From a virus, in the IMG/VR virus record IMGVR_UViG_3300004097_000010, positions 1 through 48,599 of that record: a stretch of 48,599 nucleotides of DNA; one strand, written 5' to 3'. Below the pieces are notes generated by a model. The model made no database searches. It saw only the letters and a list, made by a program, of their open reading frames with translations, and was not told the DNA's origin. Each line of letters starts with the position of its first letter. Position 1 is the stretch's first letter. Below are positions 5,889 to 40,739 of the stretch, in pieces. The position numbers were made by a program, and so were the translations under genes.

Positions 5889-5913
5889 ACGGCATAAAAG
5901 CAGGTTTCCCTGC
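5889..5913 (-). terminator. Terminator with TTTATGCCGT element
   Basis: The hairpin GCAGG-tttc-CCTGC (5900-5913) lies 8 bases after the leftward gene ending at 5921. On the minus strand it is followed by TTTTATGCCGT (5889-5898 read in reverse complement). This is a perfect copy of the terminator-linked element of this window. Confidence 0.75.
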
Positions 5914-5920
5914 AATTATA

Positions 5921-6193
5921 CTAGTTATCCAAACGTCTAGTAGTGACGTCATCGTCGGCATCCAAACCATCTAATAGGTTAGCGGTATCTTTGGAGAGTT
6001 CTTCTATACGTTCTAACAATTTAACTATCTCTTGATTGTTAGCCTTCACACCCACGGCCACTAGAGTTTGATTAGATTCAATTTGTTTATATTTATCCAA
6101 CATCTCAAGACAGAGTTTATGTGTTAATTCTTCTATAGTAAAACCTGTGGGATTACCTACAGTCATTAACAGGGGTTTAGTTTTATCGGTCAC
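5921..6193 (-). CDS. Small helical hypothetical protein
   Basis: The 90-residue product is mostly helical with a likely coiled coil at about 45-80 (QEIVKLLERIEELSKDTANLL) and an acidic end. It starts at GTG with AAAGGAGAG before it and overlaps the upstream DUF488-like gene by four bases, so the two are translationally coupled. It is the last gene of its leftward unit and ends in a hairpin with the TTTATGCCGT element. No function can be assigned. Confidence 0.65.
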   Translation of the reverse strand: MTDKTKPLLMTVGNPTGFTIEELTHKLCLEMLDKYKQIESNQTLVAVGVKANNQEIVKLLERIEELSKDTANLLDGLDADDDVTTRRLDN

Positions 6194-6555
6194 GATATCT
6201 CTCCTTTATATAAAAATGGTAGTTTCTGATGAGCACACACTAACTCCAACATCTCTCTGAGTAAGTGACGGTGACAGAAGACGCCCTCTCTACAAAAACA
6301 AGTAATTGCTACAGTATCACGACGTACTAGTTCATCCCATGCGTCACGATTATTTATATAACTATCACGCATTGTACGATTATATAGTTTACTATATTCC
6401 TCCTCAGACATTTGACCCGATTTATATAACCTCACCATCTCTGTAGTAGGGCTAAATACAAGTGTGTCTTTACTTCTACATGTAGTATCAATCATGGGTA
6501 CATTTAATGTTTTTGCTAATCGCCACTTCGCCATTTGTATTGTGTATAGTTCCAC
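6190..6555 (-). CDS. DUF488-type protein
   Basis: The 121-residue protein ends in AITCFCREGVFCHRHLLREML (about 83-103), the Cys...CHR-hL pattern that marks DUF488 (YeaO-like) proteins. The N-terminal motif with WRLAK and DTTCRSK also fits. The biochemical role of the family is not known; conserved Cys/His suggests metal or nucleotide binding. It starts at GTG with AAGGAA upstream and overlaps the next gene by four bases. The upstream neighbour is a RuvC-like resolvase 27 bases away. Confidence 0.65.
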   Translation of the reverse strand: MELYTIQMAKWRLAKTLNVPMIDTTCRSKDTLVFSPTTEMVRLYKSGQMSEEEYSKLYNRTMRDSYINNRDAWDELVRRDTVAITCFCREGVFCHRHLLREMLELVCAHQKLPFLYKGEIS

Positions 6556-6581
6556 CAGATAATTCCTTAGTTATTTAAAGG

Positions 6582-7223
6582 TTAGTTTGAACCTTTAGGT
6601 GTCTTTGTCTTCTTACGTTTACCTCGCTTCTTACCCTTTTTAGCGGCACGAACGAATACTGGTGCGATACCGTATAGTTCTAGATATCTCCAATACGCCA
6701 CAGCTATCGCGTCACACGAATGTTCATCTAACGTAGTGATGTCTGATGATAGACTGTAAGTGGCATTCTTAAGAGTACGTATAGCTACTCGCATTAATTC
6801 CTTATCCTTACTATTACCTTTAACACCAACCGATAATTTAACAGTTGGTGGGTCTATGGTATCTAATGGGACGTTGTAATTATAACAGATTAGACTCTCT
6901 CGAATACCAGCCATACATTCAGATAGAGCTATAATGGCATTAGCAAAACGTCCTACGAAAGGACGCTCCACTACCACCGCATGAGGTTGCCATTTAACGA
7001 ACTCTTTACGTAATACCTCACGTTGTCCGTATAACTTAGCACCCTTATTACCATATATATCTGCTATATGTTGCCACCGTTTAACCATTTTATTTCCAGT
7101 AAAAGTCTCGGCATGTTCTACGTTAACTTTGCCAGTAATTAAATTTACGTCTAATATACTTATACCTAAATTATCGCTACCGGGATCGATACCAAATATT
7201 CGAAAAATGTTGTCAGATGACAT
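6582..7223 (-). CDS. RuvC-like Holliday junction resolvase
   Basis: The 213-residue protein has a RuvC/RNase H fold. It has acidic D13 in FGIDPGSDNLGIS, E86 in VVVERPFVGRFANA, and a C-terminal pair within LDEHSCDAIAVAYW (D166/D171). These would bind two Mg ions and cut four-way DNA junctions before packaging, or debranch concatemers. The C-terminus (195-213) is Lys/Arg-rich (KKGKKRGKRKKTKTPKG), likely for DNA binding. It is not next to RuvA or RuvB genes, as expected for phage resolvases. Confidence 0.85.
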   Translation of the reverse strand: MSSDNIFRIFGIDPGSDNLGISILDVNLITGKVNVEHAETFTGNKMVKRWQHIADIYGNKGAKLYGQREVLRKEFVKWQPHAVVVERPFVGRFANAIIALSECMAGIRESLICYNYNVPLDTIDPPTVKLSVGVKGNSKDKELMRVAIRTLKNATYSLSSDITTLDEHSCDAIAVAYWRYLELYGIAPVFVRAAKKGKKRGKRKKTKTPKGSN

Positions 7224-7231
7224 ATTGAGTC

Positions 7232-10190: not shown

Positions 10191-10232
10191 TTTTGACCCC
10201 TTTAAGTAATAAATTTTGGAGTGCAGTTCATC

Positions 10233-12809
10233 ATGCCTAAAAAAGAAAAACATGACTTTAAACGCTATAGTTTCGAAAGAAGTGAAACTGCAGATAGTAT
10301 ATTAACTAAACTGGTTACAAAGACAGCAAATGAAACGGTAGATGATGCCGGCAAGCAGATAATTCCAAACAAAGATATACTAACGGATATTAGTAATAAC
10401 ATCGTCAGTAACAACACTGACTCCGCAGCTATTTTTGAAGTACATCCTGATATAGAATTAGCCATGCAAGTATTAACATCATCTATTATATCTCCGAAGG
10501 ACATGCTATCCACTGAACTGTCGTATAGTTTCAAACCATCAGTTGAAGTAGATGAGAGTACTTCTAAAGTCATAACGATTATAGAGGATTATTTCGAAAA
10601 TACCTATCCATTACAAAAGTTATTACCTAAGATATTACAAGACGCACTCTTCCATACAGGTTCATACCCTTTAATGATTCTACCGGAGTCGTCAATAGAT
10701 GACATAATTAATTCAGACCAACATGTTACAATGGAATCTATATCTGGTACAGTAGATAAAACTGGTGCTATTAAGAGTATAGGTTTGTTGGGTAAAGCGG
10801 GTGTCTCTAAAGAAGAGGACATAGGTTTAGAATCATTCTTTACATCTGTAGTAGAAACTCCTCCTTTATCTGTAGCTGAACAAACTATCAATGACTTCAC
10901 TACTATAACTGATAATTTAGATATATTAAAACTACCATCTCTTCGTACTAAAATGGTACAGTCTAGAGTGGCAGATAAACTATCCGTAAGTAGAAGTATA
11001 TCAACTGAAGCTAAGAAGGATAAAAGTGCCTATTCTGTTAAGTCGTTATACCGTGAACGTAAATATGAAAAGAGTACTGTAATTCCTATCAAACCTGTGG
11101 AAGGTGATACGGAAAATAAAGGCCATCCGTTAGTAATGAAGTTACCGTCAGAAGCCGTTATACCTGTACATACTCCGGGTACGCCAGAAGACCACGTAGG
11201 TTACTTTATACTGTTGGATAAAACTGGTAATCCTATTAATAAAAGTACTGAGGCTACTCAGTATAAGAATCTAAGAAGTAATATTAGTGCCAATACCTCC
11301 GGCGCTAGTGAGTTACTACAGCAAACTAGACAGGCTATGGTGGGGGCAACTTCTGAAAGTTCTAACGACGTTAAGGTCGGGGAAATGATAGCTTCTTATA
11401 CGTCATTAATAGAATCTACGTTAATTCAACGACTACAGAACGGCGTGTACGGTGACTCCGCTACCATATCTAATCCCGAGCAAGTTTATCACATTATGAT
11501 GTCTAGAGCGTTATCTCGTATGCATACACAGATACTATTCGTACCTGCAGAGCTACTAACGTATATTGCATTTAATTACGATAAAGATGGTGTAGGTCGT
11601 TCTCTGTTAGACTCTAGCAAAATAATATCTTCTATTCGTAGTATGTTATTGTTTTCTAACACCATGGCCGCGTTGAAGAACTCTATGCCTAGAACTGGAG
11701 TAGATATTACTCTAGATGCCAAAGACCCTAATCCGGGAAAGACTGTTGAGATTCTAATGGCTGCCTATGTAAAGAATCATCACGAGACCTTTCCGCTAGG
11801 TACCAACAACCTAAATGATTTGGTTACTCATTTACAAAAATCTGCAGTTGACGTAAATGTTAGTGGTAATACTGGATATCCGGATACTAAAGTTGAGGTT
11901 AATGATAAACAACGAAGTATGGCGACGGTAGATACCGACTTAGCCGATGACATGAAGAATAAACAAATTATGTCTTTTGGTCTAGCACCAGAGACTATAG
12001 ACGCTACTATGGATGTAGAGTTTGCTACTAGTTTAGTAGGTAGTAATTTATTATTAGCTAAACGAGTTATGTTATACCAGTCACAGTTAGTAGGTTTCTT
12101 AGAAGACTTTGTTAAGAAGTTTACTCTAAATTCAGGACCATTAATGCAGAGTATCTCTTCGGCAATAAGTGGTGATGAGGATGAGAGTAAGGTAATTTCA
12201 TTGGTAGAATCTATTTGTATTACTTTACCGTCACCAGATACTGCCAAACTTAGTAATCAGATGGAGGCATTTACTGCTTATACGGAAGCTCTAGATAATA
12301 CTTTAGAGGCATATTTCAGTGAAGATATGTTTGGTAATACGTTAGACTCTGAATTGGAAGATGGTATTGAACCGGTACGCATTGCTTTACGCGGCTATTT
12401 CCAACGTCAGTGGTTACGTAAAAATAACGTGATGTCTGAGTTAGATATAATGTCGGGTGAGGGTAAAGAGGAGTTTGATATCTTTAACGTTCACACTACC
12501 CATATATCGGCTATATTGGATTCAGTTAAAGAACTGTTATTAGCTAACCGTAAGGCTGGTCGCGAAACTGCTGGTGATATAGTTAAAGATGAGGAGGATG
12601 AGGCTGCTGCTGAAGAGGCTAGGTTGGCAAAACTTGAAGAGGAGGAAGCGGCTAGAGAAGTGGAAGTTAGTGACGAGCCTGTTGAGGAGACTGATGAAGA
12701 AGTTAGTGACGAGCCTGTTGAGGAGACTGATGAAGAGGTGGTAGTGGAACCTGATGTACCAGAAGATACTTCTGGTGACGATGAGTTACCAGCGCCTCCT
12801 GTAACATAA
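10233..12809 (+). CDS. Portal protein
   Basis: The frame begins with a GTG at 10221, but ATG 10233 is spaced correctly from GGAG (10218-10221), giving 858 residues. The N-terminal region contains IFEVHPDIELAMQVLTSSIISPKD (about 68-90), which resembles the start of the T4 gp20/phiKZ-type portal core (state of bound pairs then helices), and the middle has the long stem-like region (about 400-560). The portal forms the dodecameric vertex through which DNA is packaged and ejected. The last 90 residues are almost all acidic, with an exact duplicated unit. It is a single-gene rightward unit ended by a terminator and lies opposite the RNA polymerase/capsid block. Confidence 0.72.
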   Translation: MPKKEKHDFKRYSFERSETADSILTKLVTKTANETVDDAGKQIIPNKDILTDISNNIVSNNTDSAAIFEVHPDIELAMQVLTSSIISPKDMLSTELSYSFKPSVEVDESTSKVITIIEDYFENTYPLQKLLPKILQDALFHTGSYPLMILPESSIDDIINSDQHVTMESISGTVDKTGAIKSIGLLGKAGVSKEEDIGLESFFTSVVETPPLSVAEQTINDFTTITDNLDILKLPSLRTKMVQSRVADKLSVSRSISTEAKKDKSAYSVKSLYRERKYEKSTVIPIKPVEGDTENKGHPLVMKLPSEAVIPVHTPGTPEDHVGYFILLDKTGNPINKSTEATQYKNLRSNISANTSGASELLQQTRQAMVGATSESSNDVKVGEMIASYTSLIESTLIQRLQNGVYGDSATISNPEQVYHIMMSRALSRMHTQILFVPAELLTYIAFNYDKDGVGRSLLDSSKIISSIRSMLLFSNTMAALKNSMPRTGVDITLDAKDPNPGKTVEILMAAYVKNHHETFPLGTNNLNDLVTHLQKSAVDVNVSGNTGYPDTKVEVNDKQRSMATVDTDLADDMKNKQIMSFGLAPETIDATMDVEFATSLVGSNLLLAKRVMLYQSQLVGFLEDFVKKFTLNSGPLMQSISSAISGDEDESKVISLVESICITLPSPDTAKLSNQMEAFTAYTEALDNTLEAYFSEDMFGNTLDSELEDGIEPVRIALRGYFQRQWLRKNNVMSELDIMSGEGKEEFDIFNVHTTHISAILDSVKELLLANRKAGRETAGDIVKDEEDEAAAEEARLAKLEEEEAAREVEVSDEPVEETDEEVSDEPVEETDEEVVVEPDVPEDTSGDDELPAPPVT
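12663..12734 (+). repeat. Two exact 36-bp tandem repeats in portal tail
   Basis: The unit beginning GAAGTTAGTGACGAGCC is repeated exactly once (12663-12698 and 12699-12734). It encodes twelve residues, EVSDEPVEETDE, twice in frame within the acidic C-terminus of the portal protein. The perfect identity suggests a recent duplication, so copy number may vary between isolates. Confidence 0.95.
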
Positions 12810-12821
12810 AGGCAAAAAAAA

Positions 12822-12859
12822 AAGAGAGAGAGAGTCCTAGGACTCTCTCTTTATGCCGT
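12822..12859 (+). terminator. Terminator after portal gene with TTTATGCCGT element
   Basis: GAGAGAGTCCTAGGACTCTCTC forms a stem of about 10 bp with a CTAG loop, placed 15 bases after the portal stop. On the plus strand it is followed by TTTATGCCGT (12850-12859). An A-run on the other side (12814-12823) gives a T-run for the converging minus-strand gene, so the hairpin probably serves both units. Confidence 0.85.
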
Positions 12860-12869
12860 TTACTAACAC

Positions 12870-15083
12870 TTATACTAGGTGTAAATTAAAACTAGTATCG
12901 TTAAGCCATCCGCGATGAATGGTTAAAGTTATATCATCAGACGTCACTACACGATAGCTACGAATAGTCATATCTTCAGTATATGCAAACATAGCTTCAA
13001 TGATACTATATAGTTCAGGGTGTGTTGATTCTAACATAGACACTACATCATCTTTGATATCACTAAAGTTCATTTCTTCAAATGTCCACGGTAATTGTGC
13101 TACGTGCGTACATTCTTCAAAACCAACCATAGTAAGTTTAGTGACAACTTCATCCGTTTCCGTATCTATTTCAATCGGAACGTCAACGTCTTTAGTAGAT
13201 TCTATTATAGCGTCATCTAGTTCAGCTATATTAGTTACCGTAGTTATATCACGTTTAGTACCACCGAAGTTCTCATCTATTGCATCGCGGTCTAACACGT
13301 TACACATTTCTTGAATGGAGTTATCTAGCCCTTTTACCAACGCTTCTCTAAACTCCTGACTATAGGATTCTTCAACCCCGTCTAACAACTCGTTATAGTC
13401 ATCTAAGATAGAAGTGATTTTCCAAGGAACGTTCAAAGAACCTTCTAACGAATCGTTTATATATTCAGCACACATACCATCGATACGCTTACGTAAAGAC
13501 TCAGGCATTGAACAGATACGTAACGCTTCAACCAACTCAGAAATAGTAGTAGTCTTACTCATCCCTGCTTGTAGTAGAATAAACTCTTCTATGTCGTCGG
13601 TAGGGGCAAATACTATAGGAATTAATTTACTATAACTATATATGTTAACAGCATCGACATTAAAACGTTTGGCGTCAATCAGCTTGGTATACGCTATTAG
13701 CTTAGCTTCATCTCCATTACTAGCCCGGATATAGTCGTCTAAGAAAACTACATCCTTAGATTCGATTACTAAAGGTTTGTCACTTTTACGCATTGCCAGT
13801 TCGACACTTTCATATATCTTACGGCCTACCCATTTATTGTTGGAAGGTGGTGTAAGTTCGTGGTCTTCTTCTTTCATGATATCTCCTCTAACTATATCGA
13901 TAACGTTACCTTCGTTATCAATTACATGGTATTTACGTTGGGTTTTAGTATTATATACTAGGTCGTGTGTCTGAGAGTCCGTAGGAGTTCGTGTAAGACC
14001 ACTTAACTCTGCAGGATAAGCCAACACATCGCAATCATCGTAGATGGTACTAATGGTACCCTTAGGAAGTCCGTTAGGATATTTATCTATAGCAAATTTT
14101 CTTTGGGTAGAATCAATGGCTATAGGTCTAAGTTGTTCTAACGTATCGTTGTTTACACTAACTTGTGATACGTCCGCAAAGTCCGAAACTGGACCTTTAG
14201 GTTTAGCTAAAGTACTTTCAGGGAATCCGTACTTTTGTAATGGTTTCTGCGCAGTTCGTTGGACGACCGGAGCAAGTGGTTCTGGTGACCCGGTATCAAA
14301 TTCGTTAGTAGTGGGCGTAGGTAACTTAGCGTGTACCTTACCTAACTTACGACTAGACGTATTTGTATTATGCGCATTTCCGTATGTTCTAGTGGTTGCC
14401 CACGGTGTCTGCCCTCCTTGAGGCGATACGTTAGGTGGTGACTGCCACGGCGACGCTTGTGTAGCCGGTGCCGCCTGTCTATAATCTCTACGTTGACCAT
14501 TGTTTATGGGGCGGTTTTGAGCGTAGTTTTGAGGCTGGCGATACCCGCCCTGAGGTTGTGGTTGATAGCCGATTTGTGGTTGTGGAGTCTGTTGTCTCCC
14601 ACTAGCAGATATCATGTTAGTAATATCGTTGAATTTATTGATTTGTACACTTATGTCCTGACGTATGTTAGGGTCTACATATCCCATCAATTCTGGATAC
14701 TTCTGCGTATTGATAGACGCTAGGCAACTACAGAGAGTTACTGCAGCTTCTGCTACTAACTCTTCAGGTGGCACGGTATTATAGTTAGTTAGTAGGTATA
14801 GTGAGTATAACGAAACTACTAATAACAAATCGTCATAAGCCGCGTTGTTAAAATAATTACTTGACATCTCATTATACATGAATGTACGAAGTACGTTGTT
14901 ATGTGCAGTGTCCTGTAGCGTTAAGCGGGTATAGCCGTCAATCATTCCGAAAAACTGTTCCATCTCACGAGGGAGGCCGGGCGGTAAATGACGCGCCTGT
15001 AATCCATTAGGTAGGCCGTCAATCATTGTAGATTGGTCGGGACTATCGATTGGGAATGGTAGTTGTGGTCGTTGTGAATACAT
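12870..15083 (-). CDS. Large protein with Pro/Gln-rich linker, unknown function
   Basis: The 737-residue protein has a helical N-terminal domain (about 1-155), a low-complexity segment (about 160-290) rich in Pro, Gln, Asn, Gly and Tyr (QPQIGYQPQPQGGYRQPQ), and a larger C-terminal alpha/beta region (about 300-737) with many acidic residues. I do not recognise a catalytic motif. It lies between the portal and the RNA polymerase-like gene and is read in the same direction as that gene and the capsid gene. It may be a virion or transcription-associated protein. The start ATG has AAAGGAA upstream. Confidence 0.6.
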   Translation of the reverse strand: MYSQRPQLPFPIDSPDQSTMIDGLPNGLQARHLPPGLPREMEQFFGMIDGYTRLTLQDTAHNNVLRTFMYNEMSSNYFNNAAYDDLLLVVSLYSLYLLTNYNTVPPEELVAEAAVTLCSCLASINTQKYPELMGYVDPNIRQDISVQINKFNDITNMISASGRQQTPQPQIGYQPQPQGGYRQPQNYAQNRPINNGQRRDYRQAAPATQASPWQSPPNVSPQGGQTPWATTRTYGNAHNTNTSSRKLGKVHAKLPTPTTNEFDTGSPEPLAPVVQRTAQKPLQKYGFPESTLAKPKGPVSDFADVSQVSVNNDTLEQLRPIAIDSTQRKFAIDKYPNGLPKGTISTIYDDCDVLAYPAELSGLTRTPTDSQTHDLVYNTKTQRKYHVIDNEGNVIDIVRGDIMKEEDHELTPPSNNKWVGRKIYESVELAMRKSDKPLVIESKDVVFLDDYIRASNGDEAKLIAYTKLIDAKRFNVDAVNIYSYSKLIPIVFAPTDDIEEFILLQAGMSKTTTISELVEALRICSMPESLRKRIDGMCAEYINDSLEGSLNVPWKITSILDDYNELLDGVEESYSQEFREALVKGLDNSIQEMCNVLDRDAIDENFGGTKRDITTVTNIAELDDAIIESTKDVDVPIEIDTETDEVVTKLTMVGFEECTHVAQLPWTFEEMNFSDIKDDVVSMLESTHPELYSIIEAMFAYTEDMTIRSYRVVTSDDITLTIHRGWLNDTSFNLHLV

Positions 15084-15102
15084 TGTTATTTTTCCTTTAT
15101 TG

Positions 15103-16734
15103 TTAAATTCGTGCGATTCTATTTTGTATACTATCTAGTAGCGGTGCGTATTCCTCATTACGTACTACCATACCACTAGGGTCTATATTTAAATAACAGT
15201 TAACCTTACTGTGTCCTGTTGGACTGAACTTAGGTTGGTTGGCAAAAGAACCCACTTCTGCAAGTGATGCATGTAAGAACTTCGTTTCGTCAGTTAACCC
15301 ACCTTTGTGTTTACCCGGACCTGTGGCATCTGATTGAGCAACCATTTTACTAGTTATTTTGATAAATTTATTATCTCCAGAACTACTAACGCTACTAACC
15401 TCGCCATGACCGGTATTAATCTTCATTATCACACTACTTGTTAAGATGCGATCCATTGCACTTTCTATGTCCTTTAACGTTATCTCACGTTTTACATTAC
15501 TAGTTAATTTAAATGTAAGTGTGAATATTGCTTTAACTACATCTAACAGAATATAACGCAATACTGTTAAACGTTTGTCGTACATACTACTAACATCAGT
15601 TCTAACTATTCTATCGGTCATAGTTTCGAGGATATAAATGAATAGCTCGTATATGTCATCACAGCGAATATTCTCATACGCTAATGACTCCTGTACCATC
15701 CCATCAATATATTCATCCAACGAACTAAGGTGAGCGTCTATATCTTCTACTAATTTACCTTCATTTGCCGCCACTTTAAATATAACGTGACCCAATAGCA
15801 CCTTCCATAAACGTGTATGGTCTATGAAGTCCGCTTGAATACGGTCGGGGAAATGGTCTACTATATAAAACAGTGCGCCAACCATAGATGCAGTAGTTGT
15901 AGTATACTCACTACGCTTAATAGCTATATGTAGGTTAGACGGTATATAACCCTTACCTTTAATGCTGTTAGGCATGATACCTGTAGGTTTACATATTACC
16001 CAGTCTTTAGCAGGATATAACTCTTCAGTTATCTCTAATGCACCATCGCCGACCTTTACGTCAGCACCACCAAAACGCTTAAATGTTTCAGTAAGACCAA
16101 ACTTACAGAACATGTAATGTATTAATGTAGAGTTTACCGTTATGCGTAATCCGTTAATTCTAGCTAGTTTACCACGTGGAACTTTACCGTGATGTAACTG
16201 AGACCAGATAACACTAACGGACTCTCGCTGACCATTTGCTACGAAGTTATGGGTGATACGTTCGAATGTTAATTTATCCCTAGTAATGGGCATAAATAAC
16301 TTATCGTTATCTACCGAAAATAGTCTATCTGTAATGACTGGATTCACTACGAATTTACTACCACGAATAGAGATAGTACCTGCATCACCAACGAACGGTA
16401 AGAATAGGTATCTAGGATTCATCTGAATAGGACGTGCATCATCAGGGCCCTGAAATTCAAACAAGTATTTAACTAAATATATATCACTTTTAGCTAAATC
16501 GAACACTTCTCGTTTAAATCGTTTTCTAGTTACTTCGTTATATTGTTCTTGTGGCGTACATCGCTTGTAGCCTAGATATCGTAACCCCGGCGGAAAAGAA
16601 ATAGCCGCACATTTAAATACTCTGTCTATATATAACTCTACGTGTTTCATCTGCTCTACTACTAGTCCGTCTGCTAGCAATGGATTGATTTTGGGCACAT
16701 GTTTATGTATTTCGTCAAACAGTCTAGTATCCAC
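15103..16734 (-). CDS. Probable phage RNA polymerase subunit (beta-like)
   Basis: This 543-residue protein resembles the split beta subunits of phiKZ-type multisubunit RNA polymerases. Its segment DAGTISIRGSKFVV (about 116-129) mimics the GTFIINGTERV strand pair of bacterial beta, and the size and location next to the capsid gene match phiKZ gp123, a non-virion polymerase subunit. If so, it works with other subunits to transcribe middle and late phage genes. It starts at GTG with TTAGGAG seven bases upstream. The 19-base gap to the next gene suggests cotranscription. It could instead be another phage protein with a similar strand pattern. Confidence 0.5.
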   Translation of the reverse strand: MDTRLFDEIHKHVPKINPLLADGLVVEQMKHVELYIDRVFKCAAISFPPGLRYLGYKRCTPQEQYNEVTRKRFKREVFDLAKSDIYLVKYLFEFQGPDDARPIQMNPRYLFLPFVGDAGTISIRGSKFVVNPVITDRLFSVDNDKLFMPITRDKLTFERITHNFVANGQRESVSVIWSQLHHGKVPRGKLARINGLRITVNSTLIHYMFCKFGLTETFKRFGGADVKVGDGALEITEELYPAKDWVICKPTGIMPNSIKGKGYIPSNLHIAIKRSEYTTTTASMVGALFYIVDHFPDRIQADFIDHTRLWKVLLGHVIFKVAANEGKLVEDIDAHLSSLDEYIDGMVQESLAYENIRCDDIYELFIYILETMTDRIVRTDVSSMYDKRLTVLRYILLDVVKAIFTLTFKLTSNVKREITLKDIESAMDRILTSSVIMKINTGHGEVSSVSSSGDNKFIKITSKMVAQSDATGPGKHKGGLTDETKFLHASLAEVGSFANQPKFSPTGHSKVNCYLNIDPSGMVVRNEEYAPLLDSIQNRIARI

Positions 16735-16799
16735 CGTTTTCTCCTAAGGGTTTGTTGATATTATATTCTTACATTACTCTGTATTTAATTAACGTAGTG

Positions 16800-17990: not shown

Positions 17991-18038
17991 ACGGCATAAA
18001 AGAATCTAAAAAGACTGTCCTATTTATAAGGTCGTCTT
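17991..18038 (-). terminator. Distal capsid terminator with TTTATGCCGT element
   Basis: On the minus strand an imperfect stem (AAGAC/GTCTT outer, AGG/CCT inner) is followed by TTTTTAGATTC and then TTTTATGCCGTC. The exact element ACGGCATAAA lies at 17991-18000. It is about 240 bases beyond the capsid stop codon, so it would make a capsid mRNA with a long 3' end. Confidence 0.55.
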
Positions 18039-18229
18039 TCTATCATCTAATATACTTCTTTCTTTAACGTCTTTAAATACGACCGCTACCTATGTAGAAT
18101 ACCAGGCTAAGTCGGAGGGTCTAAATATTTTCTAGAGGTTGAATACGTTAAGTATTCTAAGTACGCAATTAAGCGTTTGGATTTAACATCAAATTGTATT
18201 AATACTTACGCGACTGCTAGTATTATAGT

Positions 18230-18259: not shown

Positions 18260-18275
18260 GAACTAAACTAAATGT

Positions 18276-20438
18276 TTAGTCTTGTGTACCTAACACTTTA
18301 GAAAGACCATTAACTTTAATAACTGCAATGATTGGTAAGCAGTTGATATGTAAGTCACGGGTTTGAATTTGTGTTTCTTTCTGCTGTGTGTTGTTACGTG
18401 ATACTTGTGCATGACTTGAAAGTTCAGGCATGTATGCATGGATACCAGTTGAAAGTGGATCAAGTTTACCAGATTTATCACCACGAGTTAACGTTAGGAC
18501 GATTGTATCATTCATACGTTCATCTGGAGAACTAACAATCATGTGATCAACTTCAGCTGATAAAGTACGCTCATCACCAGAAACGATTAAGTGACGTGGT
18601 AAGATAGTATCAGTACCGATTAAAACTTTTGGTTTCTCGTTGCTACCCATTGTAAGGTTAGCTAATGCGCCATCGTAGTTAGAATCACGAATCATGCGGT
18701 AAGAGATATCGCGGATTGCATCAATTAATACAGCAGCAACATCAGAAGCACGCTCATGACTTTTAACACTTTTAATACGAGTTTCCATATCAAGAACTAA
18801 TTCTTCAAAGAATGGAGTAACTGCGTAACGACCAATACCTTCAATTGCAGGGATAGTACCCGGAGCTATTGATTTGATATCTAAAGTACGTAGACTATCA
18901 ACGTAGTTCAATAAAGAAGTAACGGCTGCGTTAGATGTAGTTGTACGTGAAGTAGCAACTAAAGCACGTAAATCAGATGCTTTATCTGTAGCTGAACTTA
19001 ATGGAGATGGAGCAGTAATCGGTGGACCTAATGGGATTGTGTAGCTTTCAGTAACAACTTTACTGTCAACTAACAAACCACGTGTACGACGGTTACCGTT
19101 TGTTTTATGAGCATTGATATCATAACCCAATACTTCAAAAGTGATATCGTCAACGATAGACTTACCAGCGCCAGTATCAAGAGGTAAACTTTCACCCGAA
19201 GCAAGTTCGTAAACTGTATTGATAGTAATACCGTTTGAGTAGATATGTGTATCAGCAGTTTCTAAGTTAGTGTCACCATTAACTTTAACTGATAAACGAA
19301 TACCTGCACTAGCAGCTACTAACGTTTCAAGGCCTTCAGGCACTACACCACCTAAAGTAAGAGTTTTATCATTGATAACTAAGTCTACAGTATTGTAGCT
19401 AAGTTCCATACCGTAACTATCGTCTTCTTTAGCAGGTAAGAATGAAGTACGTGGAAGACCAGCTAGTTTAAAACGGATTACAGATTTTTTAGTAGGCTCA
19501 GATGCAGATGCAACGCGAACGTACATGTAATCTAAAGATACTTTCTGTGCCAATGCATCAGATGCGTCTAATGTAGAACCACCAACCATACCCGGTGCAA
19601 CAGATAGGGCTAATAAATCAAAACGTGCGTCGTTACGGATAGGACCAGTTTTAACAGATACGCCATCAACGATACGGTCAGACAATGGAACTGCTGCAGT
19701 GTCTACAAAATTTGCAGCATTACTATCATCGGCAAGGTAAACTGGAACGATGCGAGTAGCTTCGTTTGCTAAAATTGTTGAATCAACCATTGCGTCAATA
19801 ATTGAACGTTTCTTAAAGTCTGTAACTGAGCCGTTAGCAGCACGTTTAATTTCATTCATTACCATTGTACGTTCAACAGACATGGTTAAACCATTTGCAT
19901 CTGGAGAAAGTACGTGAGTTGGATAGAACGCTTCTGCGAAGTCATCTTGAACAGCAGCTAATGCGTTGAATACAACAGAGTGACCGATAAAGTTACGTAA
20001 ATCTTTCTCCTCGAATGCTTCTAAAGAAACTTCGTGACGATGATCAATTGAACCAGCAATACCTGTAGAAGTTGGACGAACTACATCGATACCTTCAACT
20101 GACGGATTTAATGTACTTGTAGCCGCTTCAGCGAATGCTACTAAGTTACCAGCGCCCATTGCAATGATTGTAGCTGCTTCAAGACCAGCGTCACCAATAG
20201 ATTCGATAGAAACGCCAGCGTCAATTAGAGTTTGTTTAACAGTATTTTCTACATCGTCATATGCATTTTCAATCTCTGCAGTACGAACTGAATCAATACC
20301 TTCCATTGAAATAATACCGGCGGCAACATCAGAACTAACTAAAGCTCCGCCACCATTTAATAGTAATGTTGAAATTGCTGCCGATGCTGCACCAGCGATT
20401 GCTTGAGATGGTTTTGATTTTTTATTAAAACGTGACAT
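18276..20438 (-). CDS. Major capsid protein precursor
   Basis: The frame opens at 20501, but the start at ATG 20438 (MSRFNKKSKPSQ) has AAAGGAA at the right distance, giving 720 residues. The first 140 residues are Ala/Gly-rich and carry several [S/A]-x-E sites: SME|G45, SIE|S79, SVE|G115, SLE|A140. In phiKZ-type phages the prohead protease cuts after such Glu residues, so this is a propeptide removed during head maturation, and the mature shell protein would probably start at residue 116 or 141. The remaining 580 residues are a beta-rich HK97-fold-like shell protein by context. It is preceded by a 186-residue gene and followed by a long noncoding 3' region. Confidence 0.78.
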   Translation of the reverse strand: MSRFNKKSKPSQAIAGAASAAISTLLLNGGGALVSSDVAAGIISMEGIDSVRTAEIENAYDDVENTVKQTLIDAGVSIESIGDAGLEAATIIAMGAGNLVAFAEAATSTLNPSVEGIDVVRPTSTGIAGSIDHRHEVSLEAFEEKDLRNFIGHSVVFNALAAVQDDFAEAFYPTHVLSPDANGLTMSVERTMVMNEIKRAANGSVTDFKKRSIIDAMVDSTILANEATRIVPVYLADDSNAANFVDTAAVPLSDRIVDGVSVKTGPIRNDARFDLLALSVAPGMVGGSTLDASDALAQKVSLDYMYVRVASASEPTKKSVIRFKLAGLPRTSFLPAKEDDSYGMELSYNTVDLVINDKTLTLGGVVPEGLETLVAASAGIRLSVKVNGDTNLETADTHIYSNGITINTVYELASGESLPLDTGAGKSIVDDITFEVLGYDINAHKTNGNRRTRGLLVDSKVVTESYTIPLGPPITAPSPLSSATDKASDLRALVATSRTTTSNAAVTSLLNYVDSLRTLDIKSIAPGTIPAIEGIGRYAVTPFFEELVLDMETRIKSVKSHERASDVAAVLIDAIRDISYRMIRDSNYDGALANLTMGSNEKPKVLIGTDTILPRHLIVSGDERTLSAEVDHMIVSSPDERMNDTIVLTLTRGDKSGKLDPLSTGIHAYMPELSSHAQVSRNNTQQKETQIQTRDLHINCLPIIAVIKVNGLSKVLGTQD

Positions 20439-20532
20439 GGATTTTCCTTTAATAACGTTATTTAAAAAGAATTTGCTATATGCTTTTGTTAATATTAACA
20501 TATAATTATTGGGTAGCGTCTATTTATATTTT

Positions 20533-21093: not shown

Positions 21094-21129
21094 TTTTTGT
21101 ATTACCCTCTAAAAGAATTAGGAACATGT

Positions 21130-22671: not shown

Positions 22672-22680
22672 TACAAAAAA

Positions 22681-22714
22681 AAAGAGGTTCCGTAAGGTTC
22701 CTCTTTTATGCCGT
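22681..22714 (+). terminator. Terminator after helicase gene with TTTATGCCGT element
   Basis: AAAGAGG-tt-CC-gtaa-GG-tt-CCTCTTT forms a stem with one internal loop, 10 bases after the helicase stop. On the plus strand it is followed by TTTTATGCCGTC, with the element at 22705-22714. An A-run at 22674-22683 gives a T-run for leftward transcription, so it may also end the minus-strand unit. Confidence 0.8.
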
Positions 22715-24988: not shown

Positions 24989-25019
24989 AGGGCATAAGGG
25001 ACGACTTTCGCCGTCCCTT
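24989..25019 (-). terminator. Terminator with near-match to TTTATGCCGT element
   Basis: AAGGGACG and CGTCCCTT form an 8-bp stem four bases after the leftward gene ending at 25023. On the minus strand it is followed by CTTATGCCCT, eight of ten matches to the window's terminator-linked element. It ends the tail/baseplate block. Confidence 0.8.
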
Positions 25020-25022: not shown

Positions 25023-26405
25023 TTATATACTCTCCCGTTTAATATACACGGTTAACACAGTAGTACTATTATGTTTAAGGTTACTATACCCTGCACGCTC
25101 CAATGAATGTAGGGTCTCTGCTCTGTGTATGACTCCCATAACTTCAATTACTGTATCGTGTTTAAGATATAATACTTTAACTGGCATTCCGGGATACACT
25201 AAATCTTCCTCTGAGTTCTCCCATTGAATATGTATAAAACCACCTATACGTCCGGCTAACTTACTATTTTCTACGGCTACATTATCGCTAATCTTGTTAG
25301 CGCTAAAATAGACATATTCCTTCTTAGCCTTTCTACGTTCTATAACCGTTTCTACCATATTATCTTTACGAACTACAGTAGCTTTGTTTTTACTTACCGT
25401 GGCAAAGTCGTCTATTACTAAACTTGAACGTAGTTGTCGATATCCATTACCTAAATTTAACTGGTCGGTTTCAGAGTTATCAATGTGCTGCATTTCGCCA
25501 GTAGCTAATACGTATACCTGATCACCTTTAACCTGATACGTTTTGTCTGCACCAGTCATCTTGTTACCCGGTACATTAGCTATAGTTAAAGTCTTAGCTA
25601 CTTTATTAAAACGAGTGTAGTCGTAATTCGGATAGATATACCATAGTCCTCTGTATAAATAATAACCTATACCAGCACTATACACCCCGTATCTACCCTG
25701 TAGGAAGTTAGGTAAGTCTACTAACCTAACGCCCGGCGGTATTATCACGTGATCGTATACGTGTTCATTACTAGGGTCAACTATATTAACTCCCGCAATA
25801 CCCTTAAAGTCTAACTGTTTAAACTCGCCTAGTGGTACGGGTAGTGGTGGGGGTCCACCAATTTTAGCATTATTCAACATTAGAGTGCGTAATAAATCTT
25901 TCATAGTCACGTTACGATAGATACCTGCAACCTCTACACCTCTAATAGTCTCTAACTCTATATTAGTTAGCTGTATCGAGAGAGTAATAATGTTAGACCT
26001 ATCTCCAGTCTCTTTATCACTAGTAGCAACGCCCCCATTCACCATGGCTGGAGATATCTTATCTCCTAAGGTACATGAGTACGTCTGGGCATATATAGGA
26101 GTATCTTTACTAATCTCATCCCCAGTTGCCTTCGTTGCCTTTTTGTATAGCGTAGCTTGGAGGTCATCTTTAAATGGATAAATTTCCGTAGAGTAAGTAC
26201 CCATTCCAACACTTACCTCTACCATGATAATGTCAGAAAAGTTATTAACGTATAGACGGTCTATGTCCACTGATAGAACTTTAAGTGTTTTTACTGGTAC
26301 TCCAGTTACTAAAAAATCTAACTCCCACGTAAACCTAGAGGCTGTAGCAGGTTTAGATGCTATCTCCAACATATCGTTATATAACTTACTGGCGTTTATC
26401 TCCAC
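25023..26405 (-). CDS. Probable tail or baseplate hub protein
   Basis: The 460-residue protein is beta-rich throughout. The middle region with VNIVDPSNEHVYDHVIIPPG, LVDLPNFLQGRYGVYSAGIG and YLYRGLWYIYPNYD (about 225-280) resembles the hub domains of contractile-tail proteins, and the last third looks like an OB/barrel-type domain (VYPGMPVKVLYLKHD). I infer a central hub or tail-tip role. It starts at a GTG overlapping the end of the upstream gene by ten bases, with AGGAGAG as the ribosome site. It is the last gene in a block of four structural genes. Confidence 0.5.
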   Translation of the reverse strand: MEINASKLYNDMLEIASKPATASRFTWELDFLVTGVPVKTLKVLSVDIDRLYVNNFSDIIMVEVSVGMGTYSTEIYPFKDDLQATLYKKATKATGDEISKDTPIYAQTYSCTLGDKISPAMVNGGVATSDKETGDRSNIITLSIQLTNIELETIRGVEVAGIYRNVTMKDLLRTLMLNNAKIGGPPPLPVPLGEFKQLDFKGIAGVNIVDPSNEHVYDHVIIPPGVRLVDLPNFLQGRYGVYSAGIGYYLYRGLWYIYPNYDYTRFNKVAKTLTIANVPGNKMTGADKTYQVKGDQVYVLATGEMQHIDNSETDQLNLGNGYRQLRSSLVIDDFATVSKNKATVVRKDNMVETVIERRKAKKEYVYFSANKISDNVAVENSKLAGRIGGFIHIQWENSEEDLVYPGMPVKVLYLKHDTVIEVMGVIHRAETLHSLERAGYSNLKHNSTTVLTVYIKRESI

Positions 26406-29809: not shown

Positions 29810-30123
29810 TTCAATTCCTCTATTATTGCGGGTAGTACGAAAAAGGAGTACATAGAAACTACTCTTTTAATACCTTTACATCATTATATTATTAAGTCCA
29901 TATTTAAATTAGGACATAGGCTAGGTAGGCATATCGATGAAACGTCCTATAGTAACGGCATAAGAAAAGAGAAGTACTTATGCGTTAACATAAGTACTTC
30001 TCTCGTTACCTAGGTCTCTGGAGGCTGTGGGAGAGAGATATGGCATCCCGAGACAGATACTCAAGGTTGGTTACAGAACGAACCCTTTCTCATATAATGA
30101 GATGTAGTATCTCTTTTTTCTAA
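29810..30123. other. 314-base noncoding region with strong hairpin
   Basis: No gene is seen. The region contains the 15-bp-stem terminator (29955-30003) for the internal-protein gene at 30124, a stretch near 30020-30090 with several small potential stems and unusual GC-rich pieces (CTGGAGGCTGTGGGAGAG), and a short hairpin ATGAGAT-gtagt-ATCTC followed by TTTTTT on the plus strand (about 30096-30120). On the other side CTTAATAATATAATGATG (minus strand) may be the promoter of the 28277-29809 gene. Confidence 0.55.
29955..30003 (-). terminator. Long-stem terminator with TTTATGCCGT-like element
   Basis: AGAGAAGTACTTATG and CATAAGTACTTCTCT form a 15-bp stem around CGTTAA. On the minus strand it is followed by TTTTCTTATGCCGTT (element at 29955-29964). 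It lies 121 bases after the stop of the internal-protein gene at 30124. Confidence 0.8.
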
Positions 30124-31392
30124 CTACGATTTAACTTTAGACAGGATATCATCTGATAAACCTACCAATGCAGTAGATGTATTATCTGTTATTTTCATAA
30201 TATAGCCAGTCAAAGTAACGCTCATTGTGATAGCTTGTAGCATAGCTGTCATTGCAGCTTCACGAATTGCCTTAGTTTCTTTATCAGTAGACGGCCCTTC
30301 TTTCATAAACGTCTTAAACTCCTTCTCATACTTAGCTAATGTAGATTTAGTCAAGTCGTTAACCTCAACAACATCGTCATATATATCTCGTAGTTTAACA
30401 GACGCTGCCATAATACCTTTGGTATCATTGGTTGGATTATTCGGTGAGATTACTTCATACGTCCCTACCTTAGCCTCTTTTAATTTAGGATTGTTTATGT
30501 AAGCAGGTTTTGCTACCTTAAATAGATGTTTTATAAACGTAGCTATATTGAAGTCCGTTATTGCATCCCCTTTAGCTCCAATGTCATCTAAAGCTTTCAT
30601 CGACTGACTATTTAAAGCTAGGGCTAAAAATTTACCACCCATAACTTCTATACCCACGTACTCCGTACCTTTGATTTTTAATTCTATCGCAGGCGTGTCA
30701 GGGCCACCATCAAGAGAATCTCGTACATCCATCACGCCGCGGAAAATAGCCTTTTTAGAATCGTTATTGGCTAATAGTTTACTAATTTTACCAACCGACT
30801 CGTCTAAAGTTACGATATAGTCCAACCATGAATCTACTTCAGTACGCATAGCTTTAGTTATGCTATTGATACTAGCCAGTGTAAACATAGTACCGTCAGG
30901 TAACATCAGACGTTTATCTGTAAGTGGTATTGATGTAAGAGGTTCGGCCACTTTATCAGCAACTAACTCTTCCACCTTCTTAGTCTTTTCTTCAACTGCT
31001 TTGGTAGACGATTTAAAATTACTAGTAGAACTACTAGAACTACTAAACATACTAGATATAAAACTTACTAATTTACGTATCATGTCCGCTATGAAGTCAT
31101 ATACGGCCTTTATTGCACTACCTACACTTTCAACCGATATACTGTTAGTACCTATAATAGTTTCTAACGCTATATCTAGGGGACGTAACGCATCTTCAAT
31201 ATGAGAACTAACCAACGCCACTTCTAGACTAGTAGGACTATGGTCTTCAACCGAAACAATCAAAGCTGCTTCTACTTCAGTTATTGTAGTTAACGCAATT
31301 TGTGCGTTATCTATTCTGGTACATAAATCTTCTATACTTAGTTCGTATGGGAATACCGAATTACCTAATATTGCATCTCTTGTAACGATCAT
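30124..31392 (-). CDS. Internal head protein precursor (Ser/Thr-x-Glu cleavage family)
   Basis: I start at the second ATG (31392), correctly spaced from AAGGAA, giving 422 residues. The N-terminal part (1-88) is acidic, with several S-x-E sites, and ends at SISVE|SVGSA. The next segment (about 95-118, IKAVYDFIADMIRKLVSFISSM) is a hydrophobic or amphipathic helix. This plan is shared with four other proteins of the window. In phiKZ-type phages such proteins are packaged in the head's inner body, cut by the prohead protease and ejected with DNA. Sequence identity to the other members is low outside the plan. Confidence 0.6.
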   Translation of the reverse strand: MIVTRDAILGNSVFPYELSIEDLCTRIDNAQIALTTITEVEAALIVSVEDHSPTSLEVALVSSHIEDALRPLDIALETIIGTNSISVESVGSAIKAVYDFIADMIRKLVSFISSMFSSSSSSTSNFKSSTKAVEEKTKKVEELVADKVAEPLTSIPLTDKRLMLPDGTMFTLASINSITKAMRTEVDSWLDYIVTLDESVGKISKLLANNDSKKAIFRGVMDVRDSLDGGPDTPAIELKIKGTEYVGIEVMGGKFLALALNSQSMKALDDIGAKGDAITDFNIATFIKHLFKVAKPAYINNPKLKEAKVGTYEVISPNNPTNDTKGIMAASVKLRDIYDDVVEVNDLTKSTLAKYEKEFKTFMKEGPSTDKETKAIREAAMTAMLQAITMSVTLTGYIMKITDNTSTALVGLSDDILSKVKS

Positions 31393-31420
31393 TATCATTT
31401 CCTTAACTTAGACGGATAAT

Positions 31421-31444: not shown

Positions 31445-31467
31445 AAATATTTATAACTTTTCTATAA

Positions 31468-32805: not shown

Positions 32806-32827
32806 GGTGGATATTTCTCCGCAAAAA

Positions 32828-32855
32828 TAGGATAGGACATTATGGTCCTATCCTA
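32828..32855 (-). terminator. Terminator between paralogous internal-protein genes
   Basis: TAGGATAGGAC and GTCCTATCCTA form an 11-bp stem around ATTATG, followed on the minus strand by TTTTTGC. It lies between the stop at 32897 and the start at 32805 and would reduce read-through from the upstream gene. Confidence 0.75.
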
Positions 32856-32896
32856 ATAATTAATTAAAAGGTAATCTAAATTAAGAAACTAAAATA

Positions 32897-34228: not shown

Positions 34229-34248
34229 TTGTAAATTCCTAATTGCAA

Positions 34249-35662: not shown

Positions 35663-35681
35663 TACAGGTTCCTAGAGAAAA

Positions 35682-36758: not shown

Positions 36759-36787
36759 TTTAATACCTCAATGGAGTTTATAATTAA

Positions 36788-37816: not shown

Positions 37817-37819
37817 CGT

Positions 37820-40708
37820 ATGTCTAATGAGTTAATGGAAAATATAGATTTGTATCGATTTGACCCGTCATCAATCAGTGAGGTTATATTAGATAAACTA
37901 GAAAGTGCATATCAAGGTGACTTAGATATAGTGGACGCTGGTAATCCATTCATGTTTCTAATAGAAGCTACAGCAGTAACTGCTGCAACGTCAATGGCGT
38001 ACACTGCATCTATTACCAGAAAGTTATATCCTACCCTTGCTAATACACAAGAAGATTTGTATCGCCATATGTCTGATGAAGATTACTTAGGTAGATTTGC
38101 TATACCTAGTGGCTGTTCATTTAAGTTATTATTTAATAAGGCCGAATTAATTGCTAAGGCGGTTCTTGACGATGTTACTGGGTTGAAGAAAATAATCGTT
38201 CCTAGAAATACGCAGTTCTTAATAGCTGGGTATACGTTTGGCATACACTATCCAATAGAAATACGTATACTACCAGTTGGTAGTATTCAAATCGTTTATG
38301 ATGGAACTGAAGTTTCACCTATAACAGTACTGGATAGTAATGTAGTTGAAGTAGATGAATTAACTTTAGATGGGACTGACTTCTTACAGCTAACCATACC
38401 AACTACACAATTCTCACTACGTAGCGAGTTTTTCCCTGTTAATGAAAGTACGGGCATTAACGAATCTTTGACGATATCCGATCAGTTTTATTTTGCACGT
38501 GCCTATCACGGTAATACTACTGACGGTTGGACGGAAATGCATACTACGCATAGTGAACAAGTATTTGATTCTAACAAACCTACGGTACTATTACGTGTAG
38601 AAGATGACTTAGTATACATTCACGTTCCTCAGATATATCATACTAATAAATTACTAGGGTCTCATTTACGTGTAGACTTATACGAAACTAAAGGCGACCT
38701 TTCATTAATAATGAATAATTATCCGCCTGAAGAGTATAAGGCTACGTGGCGTGATTTAGATACTAGTAGTGATGGGAAGTTAAGTGCTCCGTTGGAGACG
38801 TTGACCCAGATAGCTATATATGCTGACGGTACTACTACTGGTGGTAGAAGTGCCATTGATTTTGATGAACTACGTGTTAGAGTAATTGATAATTCTAATG
38901 CTGTTCCCGTTCCCGTTACCGATGAGCAATTAGCTGTAGTATTAAAAGACCGTGGATATAATATAATTAAACGGATAGATAATATCACTGATAGAAATTA
39001 CCACGCAACTCGACTACTACCGTCACCGGCCAGCGGTATAATTACAGGTACTGTGGGTACGTTAACTGAGAACGTAGAACTTAATATCGATAAGATACGT
39101 GAACTCGATACGGTCTATAGTAATGGTGAACGTACTACTATTTCTCCAAATACTTTATATGGATATAATAACGGATTGGTTAGTATCTTTACTGACAGTG
39201 AGCGTGAAGCGATAGAGAGTATGGCTGTAGAGAAGTTGATATCGGAACTTAATACAGAAACGTACATGTACACCCCTTTCCACCACGTACTAGATACTAC
39301 TGATAATGTGTTCGTCACTAGAGCGTATTATTTAGATGCTCCTGAAGTTATATCTAAACGTCATATTGCCGAGAATGTAAATACTTTGGTAGAAACCAAT
39401 TCGGCGACCATTGACATAGCTAGAACGTCTAATGGTTATACTGTATACGTAGTATTGTTAGCAGGTAATATAGTCGACCATATAGAGTTATCGCAACTCA
39501 ACGTACAGTTAGCATTTACGCCCGCTAAAGAAAAACGTCAAGCGTATCTAAACGGTACTTATAAAGGTGATGTAGACGGAAACCCTATGTTTGAGTTTCT
39601 AATAAATACTAACTTTGATTTAGATGAGAACGATCGTATCGGTATTACCAACTTTAGAATCTATGAATCTGATTTAGCTGAATACTTTACTGACCTAGAA
39701 ACAATTTTTAGTATCTACTACTCACTTACGGACTATCCGGTATTAGTTAGTCAACGTTCTTCTATAGACCACCGAATGGGTACTGGGATTCTCCCTAACG
39801 ACGCTGTAGGTACTTTAGAGGAGTCCTGTACTATTCGTATAGGTTCTAGTTTACATGGTCTTAAAAATGATTCTAGAAGTTTAGTTTCTGCTGAGGCATT
39901 AGAGCGTTATACTGAAGATGTGAAATGGACCTATGAATCTGACGTATATGCTACTGGTGAGAATGGTCATAAGGTCTATAGTATCGTCAACGGTGAGGTG
40001 GTATTTAATAAACTACATAGTCTAGGTGATGTTAGGTTTGACGAGTCGGGTAACGAAATGATTCGTTATAAGGCTGGCGATGTTAAGTTAGACGAGCATG
40101 GTAGAACTACTGTAATATCCGACCGTAACTTAAATCGAGAAGTTACTATAACTATGTTCGATGCTAAGTTTAGATATACTACTGACGCTAACTTAATAGC
40201 GTATCGTACAAATATACCTAAACTAATTATAGGTTATCTAGAAGATGATATTTCTGTAGTTAATGGGTTGTTGTTAGAGCGTACCGATTTATCGTTTACT
40301 CCTACTAGAACGTTAGGTACCATTGACGTTACTGTGGATAGTGGTGATATAGTTAAGATTCCGGCTTCACAAGCCTTTACTGTAGAATACTTCCTTACAC
40401 AAGTAGGTTACGAAGACTTAGCGTTACGTAGAGCTATTACGTTAAATACGCCTAAGGTAATTAGTTTAATATTACAAAACAGTACAGTTAGTGTTAACGA
40501 CCTTAACCGCGAATTGTTATTAGCTGGAGGTAGTGAGGTTATTTCTGTTAACCTAAGTGGATTGGGTGGCGATAAGAATTTAACCACGTATACGTTATTA
40601 GATAGAACCTCTACTAGTATGGTTGAGAATAGGTTGGAGTTACTAGCTGATGGTACTACTCAGTTAACCGATGATGTTACCGTCTCATTTATATTACACA
40701 CGGCATAA
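37820..40708 (+). CDS. Baseplate wedge protein (T4 gp6-like)
   Basis: The 962-residue protein has an N-terminal region (about 35-110) with NPFMFLIEATAVTAATSMAY and YRHMSDEDYLGRFAIPSG, the pattern of T4 gp6-type wedge proteins with helical arms before a gp6/J domain (ADxF-like loop with PRNTQF and IYDGTE, 130-175). Later segments are repeated beta domains. In contractile phages gp6 forms the dimers that ring the hub and start baseplate opening. GGGAGAG precedes the ATG. The last codons overlap the terminator element at 40700-40709 of the opposing unit. Confidence 0.7.
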   Translation: MSNELMENIDLYRFDPSSISEVILDKLESAYQGDLDIVDAGNPFMFLIEATAVTAATSMAYTASITRKLYPTLANTQEDLYRHMSDEDYLGRFAIPSGCSFKLLFNKAELIAKAVLDDVTGLKKIIVPRNTQFLIAGYTFGIHYPIEIRILPVGSIQIVYDGTEVSPITVLDSNVVEVDELTLDGTDFLQLTIPTTQFSLRSEFFPVNESTGINESLTISDQFYFARAYHGNTTDGWTEMHTTHSEQVFDSNKPTVLLRVEDDLVYIHVPQIYHTNKLLGSHLRVDLYETKGDLSLIMNNYPPEEYKATWRDLDTSSDGKLSAPLETLTQIAIYADGTTTGGRSAIDFDELRVRVIDNSNAVPVPVTDEQLAVVLKDRGYNIIKRIDNITDRNYHATRLLPSPASGIITGTVGTLTENVELNIDKIRELDTVYSNGERTTISPNTLYGYNNGLVSIFTDSEREAIESMAVEKLISELNTETYMYTPFHHVLDTTDNVFVTRAYYLDAPEVISKRHIAENVNTLVETNSATIDIARTSNGYTVYVVLLAGNIVDHIELSQLNVQLAFTPAKEKRQAYLNGTYKGDVDGNPMFEFLINTNFDLDENDRIGITNFRIYESDLAEYFTDLETIFSIYYSLTDYPVLVSQRSSIDHRMGTGILPNDAVGTLEESCTIRIGSSLHGLKNDSRSLVSAEALERYTEDVKWTYESDVYATGENGHKVYSIVNGEVVFNKLHSLGDVRFDESGNEMIRYKAGDVKLDEHGRTTVISDRNLNREVTITMFDAKFRYTTDANLIAYRTNIPKLIIGYLEDDISVVNGLLLERTDLSFTPTRTLGTIDVTVDSGDIVKIPASQAFTVEYFLTQVGYEDLALRRAITLNTPKVISLILQNSTVSVNDLNRELLLAGGSEVISVNLSGLGGDKNLTTYTLLDRTSTSMVENRLELLADGTTQLTDDVTVSFILHTA

Positions 40709-40739
40709 AGAAAGAGAGTGGTTCCTAGGAACCACTCTC
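40700..40739 (-). terminator. Convergent terminator whose element overlaps a stop codon
   Basis: GAGAGTGGTTCCTAGGAACC plus ACTCTC is a 26-base perfect palindrome (40714-40739). On the minus strand it is followed by TTTCTTTATGCCGT. The element (ACGGCATAAA at 40700-40709 on the plus strand) contains the TAA stop of the baseplate gene (40706-40708). It ends the leftward internal-protein unit from 40759 and may also end the rightward unit. Confidence 0.85.

Follow-up and report, generated by a model that had tools for sequence, protein, structure and literature searches.

How do the multisubunit RNA polymerases of phiKZ-like jumbo phages end their transcripts? The question is raised by the IMG/VR record IMGVR_UViG_3300004097_000010, analysed here in its entirety (48,599 bases; hereafter the window), in which the string TTTATGCCGT stands downstream of hairpins at gene ends. 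An original prediction, made from the letters of this DNA, had taken the string for a phage-specific termination or 3'-end signal, perhaps serving the phage's own RNA polymerase. Our analysis shows that it belongs to a tail, YTTATGYYGT, which follows hairpins in many phiKZ-like phages in a fixed orientation and with a preference for gene ends, and which recurs at some orthologous gene ends. Hairpin and tail together probably constitute a terminator whose U-tract has been replaced by a sequence-specific tail that a phage RNA polymerase reads.

Five exact copies of TTTATGCCGT are present in the window (5889-, 12850+, 17991-, 22705+ and 40700-, the sign giving the strand), compared with a mean of 0.08 and a maximum of 1 in 100 dinucleotide shuffles, and a sixth, CTTATGCCGT at 29955-, has one mismatch. 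Since no excess is left when 2 mismatches are allowed (36 versus 46.8 expected), the signal is the near-exact string adjoining a hairpin. All six copies lie 3' of a hairpin and, as had been claimed, the order gene stop, hairpin, element holds in the sense of the ending gene at every listed site. Folding of the 49-nt segments whose 3' end is the element gave -10.8 to -23.6 kcal/mol for the six, whereas 600 random segments averaged -6.1 kcal/mol, with their 5th percentile at -11.7 and their 1st at -17.2 kcal/mol; the weakest hairpin, at 17991 (-10.8 kcal/mol), fails the 5th percentile, and its imperfect stem stops about 6 nt ahead of the element. The two weaker copies of the original prediction, CTTATGCCCT at 24989- and TCTATGCTGT at 61-, likewise follow hairpins (-18.4 and -12.7 kcal/mol). 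Two of its details have to be amended. The core GGCATAA was said to occur nowhere else in the window, but its complement TTATGCC (10 copies versus 4.8 expected) is also found at 16289-, 17159+ and 27323+, inside open reading frames (ORFs) and with weak folds (-7.0, -3.5 and -5.8 kcal/mol). Moreover, the list, right at its eight sites, missed a further element, the ninth, which is TATGTTGT at 40741-40748+ and flanks the hairpin 40714-40739 on its opposite side; judging from its two flanks, this hairpin would be two-directional, ending both gene 37820-40708 and the opposing gene. At 12850 and 22705, the reverse side of the hairpin carries on the opposite strand a run of 10 and 9 Ts, respectively (12814-12823 and 22675-22683), so that a single hairpin apparently serves a different kind of tail in each direction.

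The window appears to be part of a phiKZ-like phage genome: such phages supply the families that its capsid, helicase and virion proteins match, and one of its proteins is orthologous to the phiKZ non-virion RNA polymerase (nvRNAP) subunit PHIKZ123. The closest named match of its proteins is Xanthomonas phage LucasX, at 34-36% protein identity. PHIKZ123 is the one nvRNAP subunit found, the others lying outside the fragment or not having been sought; through it, the phage is proposed to encode the reader of the hairpin-tail signal. An Rfam 15 scan of the window gave no match at the gathering score, and so no known RNA family.

The exact string was surveyed in 16 named jumbo-phage records, with the reversed string as control (given in brackets), and 13 of them have at least one copy: 17 (1) in Noxifer, 14 (3) in KpHz_2, 12 (1) in 201phi2-1, 11 (0) in FLC9, 8 (2) in Goslar, 4 (1) in LucasX, 3 (0) in DT01, 3 (2) in Ea35-70, 2 (0) in phiKZ, and a single copy in FLC6 (0), 2050HW (0), Yong XC31 (1) and Centimanus (1). 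None occurs in PCH45, SPFM17 or OBP. AR9 lacks TTTATGYYGT, its reversed control being present five times. Four of the seven IMG/VR relatives hold TTTATGCCGT (5, 8, 3 and 9 copies) and the reversed string is found in none of the seven; single-protein searches of IMG/VR with the window DNA polymerase gave 8 loci, and those with its helicase and with its 962-aa protein gave no relatives. A strict perfect-stem hairpin directly precedes 11/17 copies in Noxifer, 11/14 in KpHz_2, 4/8 in Goslar, 4/11 in FLC9, 4/12 in 201phi2-1, 2/2 in phiKZ and 2/5 in the window, versus 2/8 for the reversed string over eight sequences. On inspection by eye the majority of copies follow a hairpin; a few in FLC9, 201phi2-1 and Goslar do not.

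The link is also seen from the side of the hairpins, when these are located as strong perfect stems (at least 7) without use of the motif. At their 3' flank TATG reaches 4.3-15.7 times its expectation in 10 of 14 other phages, the ratio being 2.9 in PCH45, 1.8 in Goslar, 1.5 in SPFM17, 0.9 in AR9 and 3.9 (7 versus 1.8) in the window; in most genomes 2 nt is the commonest spacing from stem to TATG. Four partial genomes added later brought the comparison to 18 other jumbo-phage records, 13 of which, phiKZ included, are of the TATG type, a class assigned by inspection with no preset cut-off. PCH45, SPFM17, Yong XC31 and AR9 are of the T-run type, and Goslar has a weak tail that is yet sense-biased (7/27 sense versus 1/27 antisense). 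The hairpin tests covered all but 1.8 kb of FLC9, 0.3 kb of phiKZ, 5.7 kb of LucasX, 25.5 kb of DT01, 39.8 kb of SPFM17, 84.8 kb of OBP and, among the IMG/VR records, 87.4 kb of G007 and 30.4 kb of G002; they covered less than half of FLC6, Ea35-70, Yong XC31 and 2050HW, and none of Centimanus, G001 and G003-G006.

A matrix of the tail, built from convergent flanks and applied each time to a genome kept out of its training, revealed where the tail occurs. Across the 13 TATG-type phages it scored 243/452 (54%) convergent flanks, 207/519 (40%) sense versus 108/519 (21%) antisense flanks at tandem junctions (p = 3e-11), and 60/1412 (4%) flanks of hairpins within ORFs; in the window the corresponding figures are 2/6, 2/9, 0/9 and 0/8. 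With a matrix trained on all 13 phages, the tail is present on 637/1696 (37.6%) intergenic hairpin sides, and on 27/1695, 14/1693 and 20/1691 (0.8-1.6%) when the flank is displaced by 20, 40 and 60 nt. In a 50-kb stretch of E. coli it follows 0/17 hairpins. The consensus has three Ts before the A, with A, G, YY and GT conserved after the T. In phiKZ, 28 of 90 raw TATG sites fall at convergent junctions, which make up 7% of its gene junctions.

Some of these ends have kept the tail while the hairpin differs. Orthologs of gene 10221-12809 have a TATG tail behind differing hairpins in six of the nine relatives with a readable end (LucasX, FLC9, DT01, Noxifer, phiKZ and G002), and the same is true of 6/11 orthologs of gene 37820-40708, 5/11 of the capsid gene and 5/13 of the helicase gene, the capsid and helicase sites of the window itself failing this strict ortholog-end test (distance; imperfect stem). 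Within operons, the majority of gene ends have no tail. At tandem junctions of the TATG-type phages C(UUCG)G loops lie in the gene sense 103 times versus 10, and the hairpins therefore behave as part of the upstream gene's RNA; this loop is also a handy strand marker for hairpins. Pairing of an upstream CATA with the downstream TATG, which would make the tail an extension of the stem, was rejected: the two flank the hairpin outside the stem in register in 41/181 cases versus 52.2 expected, which makes the tail a signal of the individual strand. DT01 and FLC6 are exceptions, the TATG of their two-sided hairpins lying mostly within the stem (11/14 and 4/5).

The excess, the link to hairpins in many phiKZ-like phages, the preference for convergent ends and the retention at some orthologous ends support the idea of a phage-specific termination or 3'-end signal; that transcripts end there, and that the phage's polymerase rather than the host's reads the tail, is what we infer. 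In relatives with phiKZ-type polymerases, to which the original prediction had pointed, the prediction mostly holds: in many the excess is tied to hairpins, but some use T-runs instead. Several observations weigh against our interpretation: (i) hairpins frequently have the element on both of their sides; by the matrix, 43/146 divergent flanks score in the 13 phages, and at the 81 phiKZ tandem junctions raw TATG is found on 26 sense and 28 antisense sides, some sense sides there having near variants such as TTTATTTCGT. Genes were called simply as ORFs of 60 aa or more, by which small genes are missed, and these may be the source of part of the divergent and antisense hits. (ii) PCH45, SPFM17, Yong XC31 and mostly Goslar, all placed in this phage group by capsid match, have T-runs or a weak tail; the tail is thus dispensable for some phages of the group. 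(iii) OBP is TATG-positive, yet the matrix scores only 1/12 of its convergent flanks. (iv) Tail type does not cluster on the capsid tree, which has many weak forks. (v) The two sides of the UUCG loop do not differ significantly in TATG (36 on the 3' side versus 23; p = 0.12). (vi) The hairpin after PHIKZ298, near which the RNA of its 3' untranslated region (3'-UTR) ends and which has been proposed as its terminator (PMC8545117), is followed by TTATATTC and not by TATG, and this is the sole phiKZ 3'-UTR RNA that we found in print.

As for the mechanism, a GC-rich hairpin would form in the nascent mRNA past the stop codon, and the tail would occupy the place of the U-tract, usually 0-3 nt past the stem base. 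With the usual gap of 2 nt, the stem is followed by the eight bases NN-TATG-YY and then by G; about 8 bases past the stem is where bacterial hairpin terminators release their RNA. The phage RNA polymerase might pause over TATGYY/G while the hairpin extracts the RNA, leaving 3' ends within or just past TATG, and with a tail of its own on each strand a two-sided hairpin could stop transcription both ways, for example between convergent genes. The pause is proposed because the release distance fits, because Y-1 and G+1 are those of a pause signal, and because TATG is the phiKZ late-promoter motif. The elemental pause signal of bacteria comprises G-10, Y-1 and G+1 (PMC12288461). The tail would provide the last two if the RNA 3' end were at the second Y, and the stem base is often G at -10 and -11 in Noxifer, 201phi2-1 and phiKZ, whereas KpHz_2 has C at both positions and FLC9 is mixed at -10; its definition comes from bacterial enzymes, and applying the signal to nvRNAP would be an analogy.

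More tentatively, and with considerable doubt, TATG may be both a start and a stop word: an nvRNAP that kept its promoter-reading subunit during elongation would re-recognise TATG within the transcription bubble behind the hairpin and stall, the promoter motif thereby acting as the terminator's pause signal as well. If true, this would make a terminator class defined by sequence-specific re-recognition rather than by a weak U-tract. AR9, whose nvRNAP has a different promoter motif (PMC5312081), lacks the tail, which fits reading by the phage polymerase; PCH45, SPFM17 and Yong XC31 also lack it and do not decide the polymerase link. One review argues that the AR9 enzyme must terminate in a different way from cellular enzymes (PMC7598289).

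The tail could instead be the poor U-tract of an ordinary intrinsic terminator, TTTATG being a weak T-rich tract whose conserved letters have no recognition of their own, and host-like termination explaining everything. It does start with Ts, T-run hairpins exist in the same genomes, even on the reverse side of the same hairpin, and variants of the TTTATTTCGT kind occur. The likeness to bacterial terminators is also clear: GC-rich hairpins are found just past the genes, often with a UUCG loop, and the signal is complete within about 10 nt of the stem. However, a U-rich tract directly past the stem is not what most tails of the 13 TATG-type phages provide, as these have fixed non-T positions, with A, G, YY and GT conserved past the T; FLC9 often has C ahead of TATG; and the T-run phages and the E. 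coli stretch lack the tail beyond low levels. We therefore consider this explanation unlikely. That the two tails serve two polymerases is unsupported as it stands. Pooling seven phages, T-run ends number 75 on the major strand versus 14 on the other, and TATG ends 196 versus 130 (p = 1.5e-5); this pool was drawn from nine phages, DT01 (p = 1.0) and the T-run phage PCH45 (p = 0.65) being excluded, and the bias is singly significant only in phiKZ and KpHz_2, LucasX leaning the opposite way (2 versus 4). The early-promoter test failed, phiKZ operons with the early-type motif TATATTAC ending equally often in TATG (6/26) and in a T-run (5/23). This early-promoter-like motif is found in intergenic regions of the major versus the other strand 24/1 times in phiKZ, 15/0 in KpHz_2 and 18/0 in 201phi2-1.

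We give the same low probability as for the ordinary terminator to RNA processing, in which cleavage at or near TATGYY past the hairpin would make the 3' ends, with no termination. The sense bias of the UUCG loops is in keeping with a hairpin acting as RNA, and the 3'-UTR RNA of PHIKZ298 is attributed to processing by its authors (PMC8545117). Nevertheless, enrichment at convergent ends and the frequency of two-sided hairpins better suit a polymerase that stops. It also counts against processing that we know of no enzyme that would do it here.

Less probable still is that the elements are late promoters placed behind hairpins. The tetranucleotide is indeed that of the phiKZ late motif, with TAT from -3 and G at +1, each base of which purified nvRNAP requires to start in vitro (PMC4666361; motif also in PMC7618050), and the tail is found in phages with this polymerase. 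Unlike the promoter, however, it lies behind hairpins at gene ends and has YYGT added; it is commonest at convergent ends, where firing would oppose the next gene, rather than upstream of a same-strand gene; and between the divergent genes of TATG-type phages TATG shows no excess (22 versus 20.3 expected in phiKZ and 28 versus 29.2 in LucasX, hairpins not being removed from these counts). On these grounds promoter activity was rejected as the main function. SPFM17, a T-run phage, differs from the TATG-type phages in having such an excess (18 versus 9.7). Least probable of all is a site for a DNA-binding protein (in replication, packaging, partition or uptake), intergenic merely to spare coding sequence: the shortness and constancy of the string and its frequent presence at either side of an inverted repeat would suit it, but the fixed same-strand order of hairpin and tail, the sense bias at tandem junctions and the loops stable as RNA in the gene sense do not. 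The Neisseria DNA uptake sequence was likewise rejected, the bases past the tail being hardly conserved.

We rate the tail as a new form of hairpin terminator. In the retrievable parts of the open literature searched, including PMC5312081, PMC7598289, PMC7618050 and PMC4666361, we found neither an earlier description of it nor an account of how phiKZ-like multisubunit RNA polymerases end transcripts; the phiKZ transcriptome study (Ceyssens 2014) was outside this search and may hold an earlier description. Among the papers listed for the literal motif, one concerns a jumbo phage and has the motif within a PCR primer, and the inspected stretches of the 201phi2-1, phiKZ and Noxifer records have no annotated terminator features.

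Table 1. Hairpins with their tails, and the polymerase subunit gene, in the window
Feature	Position	Strand	Context
Hairpin 71-88 and weak element TCTATGCTGT 70-61	61..88	-	after gene 109-567
Hairpin 5900-5913 and TTTATGCCGT 5898-5889	5889..5913	-	after gene 5921-6193
Hairpin and TTTATGCCGT 12850-12859	12824..12859	+	after gene 10221-12809 (virion structural protein family)
Reverse side of the 12850 hairpin, 10 T	12823-12814	-	faces end of gene 12870-15083
PHIKZ123 ortholog, phiKZ nvRNAP subunit	15103..16734	-	match to 7ogp chain E, E = 1.3e-100
Imperfect hairpin ~18007-18042 and TTTATGCCGT 18000-17991	17991..18042	-	276 nt past stop of major capsid gene 18276-20501
Imperfect hairpin and TTTATGCCGT 22705-22714	22680..22714	+	after gene 21097-22671 (DnaB-like helicase)
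Reverse side of the 22705 hairpin, 9 T	22683-22675	-	
Hairpin ~24996-25019 and variant CTTATGCCCT 24998-24989	24989..25019	-	after gene 25023-26405
Hairpin 29967-30004 and CTTATGCCGT 29964-29955	29955..30004	-	160 nt past stop of gene 30124-31398
Hairpin 40714-40739 and TTTATGCCGT 40709-40700	40700..40739	-	after gene 40759-42012; overlaps stop codon of opposing gene 37820-40708
Same hairpin 40714-40739 and variant TATGTTGT 40741-40748	40714..40748	+	after gene 37820-40708

Other features of the window stand apart from the tail. At 45176-48599 the DNA polymerase gene is apparently interrupted: an ORF at 45176-46765 is followed by an HNH endonuclease ORF (46807-47778) and by a match to the group I intron family RF00028 at 47806-48229 (34 bits, under the gathering score of 50; E = 1.8e-6), beyond which the reading frame has the stretch DLDVAASYPS, which we take to be polymerase-like. 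Two identical 36-nt copies stand in tandem at 12663-12734, close to the 3' end of gene 10221-12809, and a pair of small neighbouring ORFs at 109-1100 resembles, judged by eye only, a lipoprotein and a membrane-anchored spanin.

The YTTATGYYGT tail offers a concrete candidate signal for tests with purified phiKZ nvRNAP, one that is common to many phiKZ-like phages, and makes a possible link between the start motif and a stop motif directly testable. It would also allow the ends of operons to be predicted in those jumbo phages in which finders based on the U-tract perform poorly.

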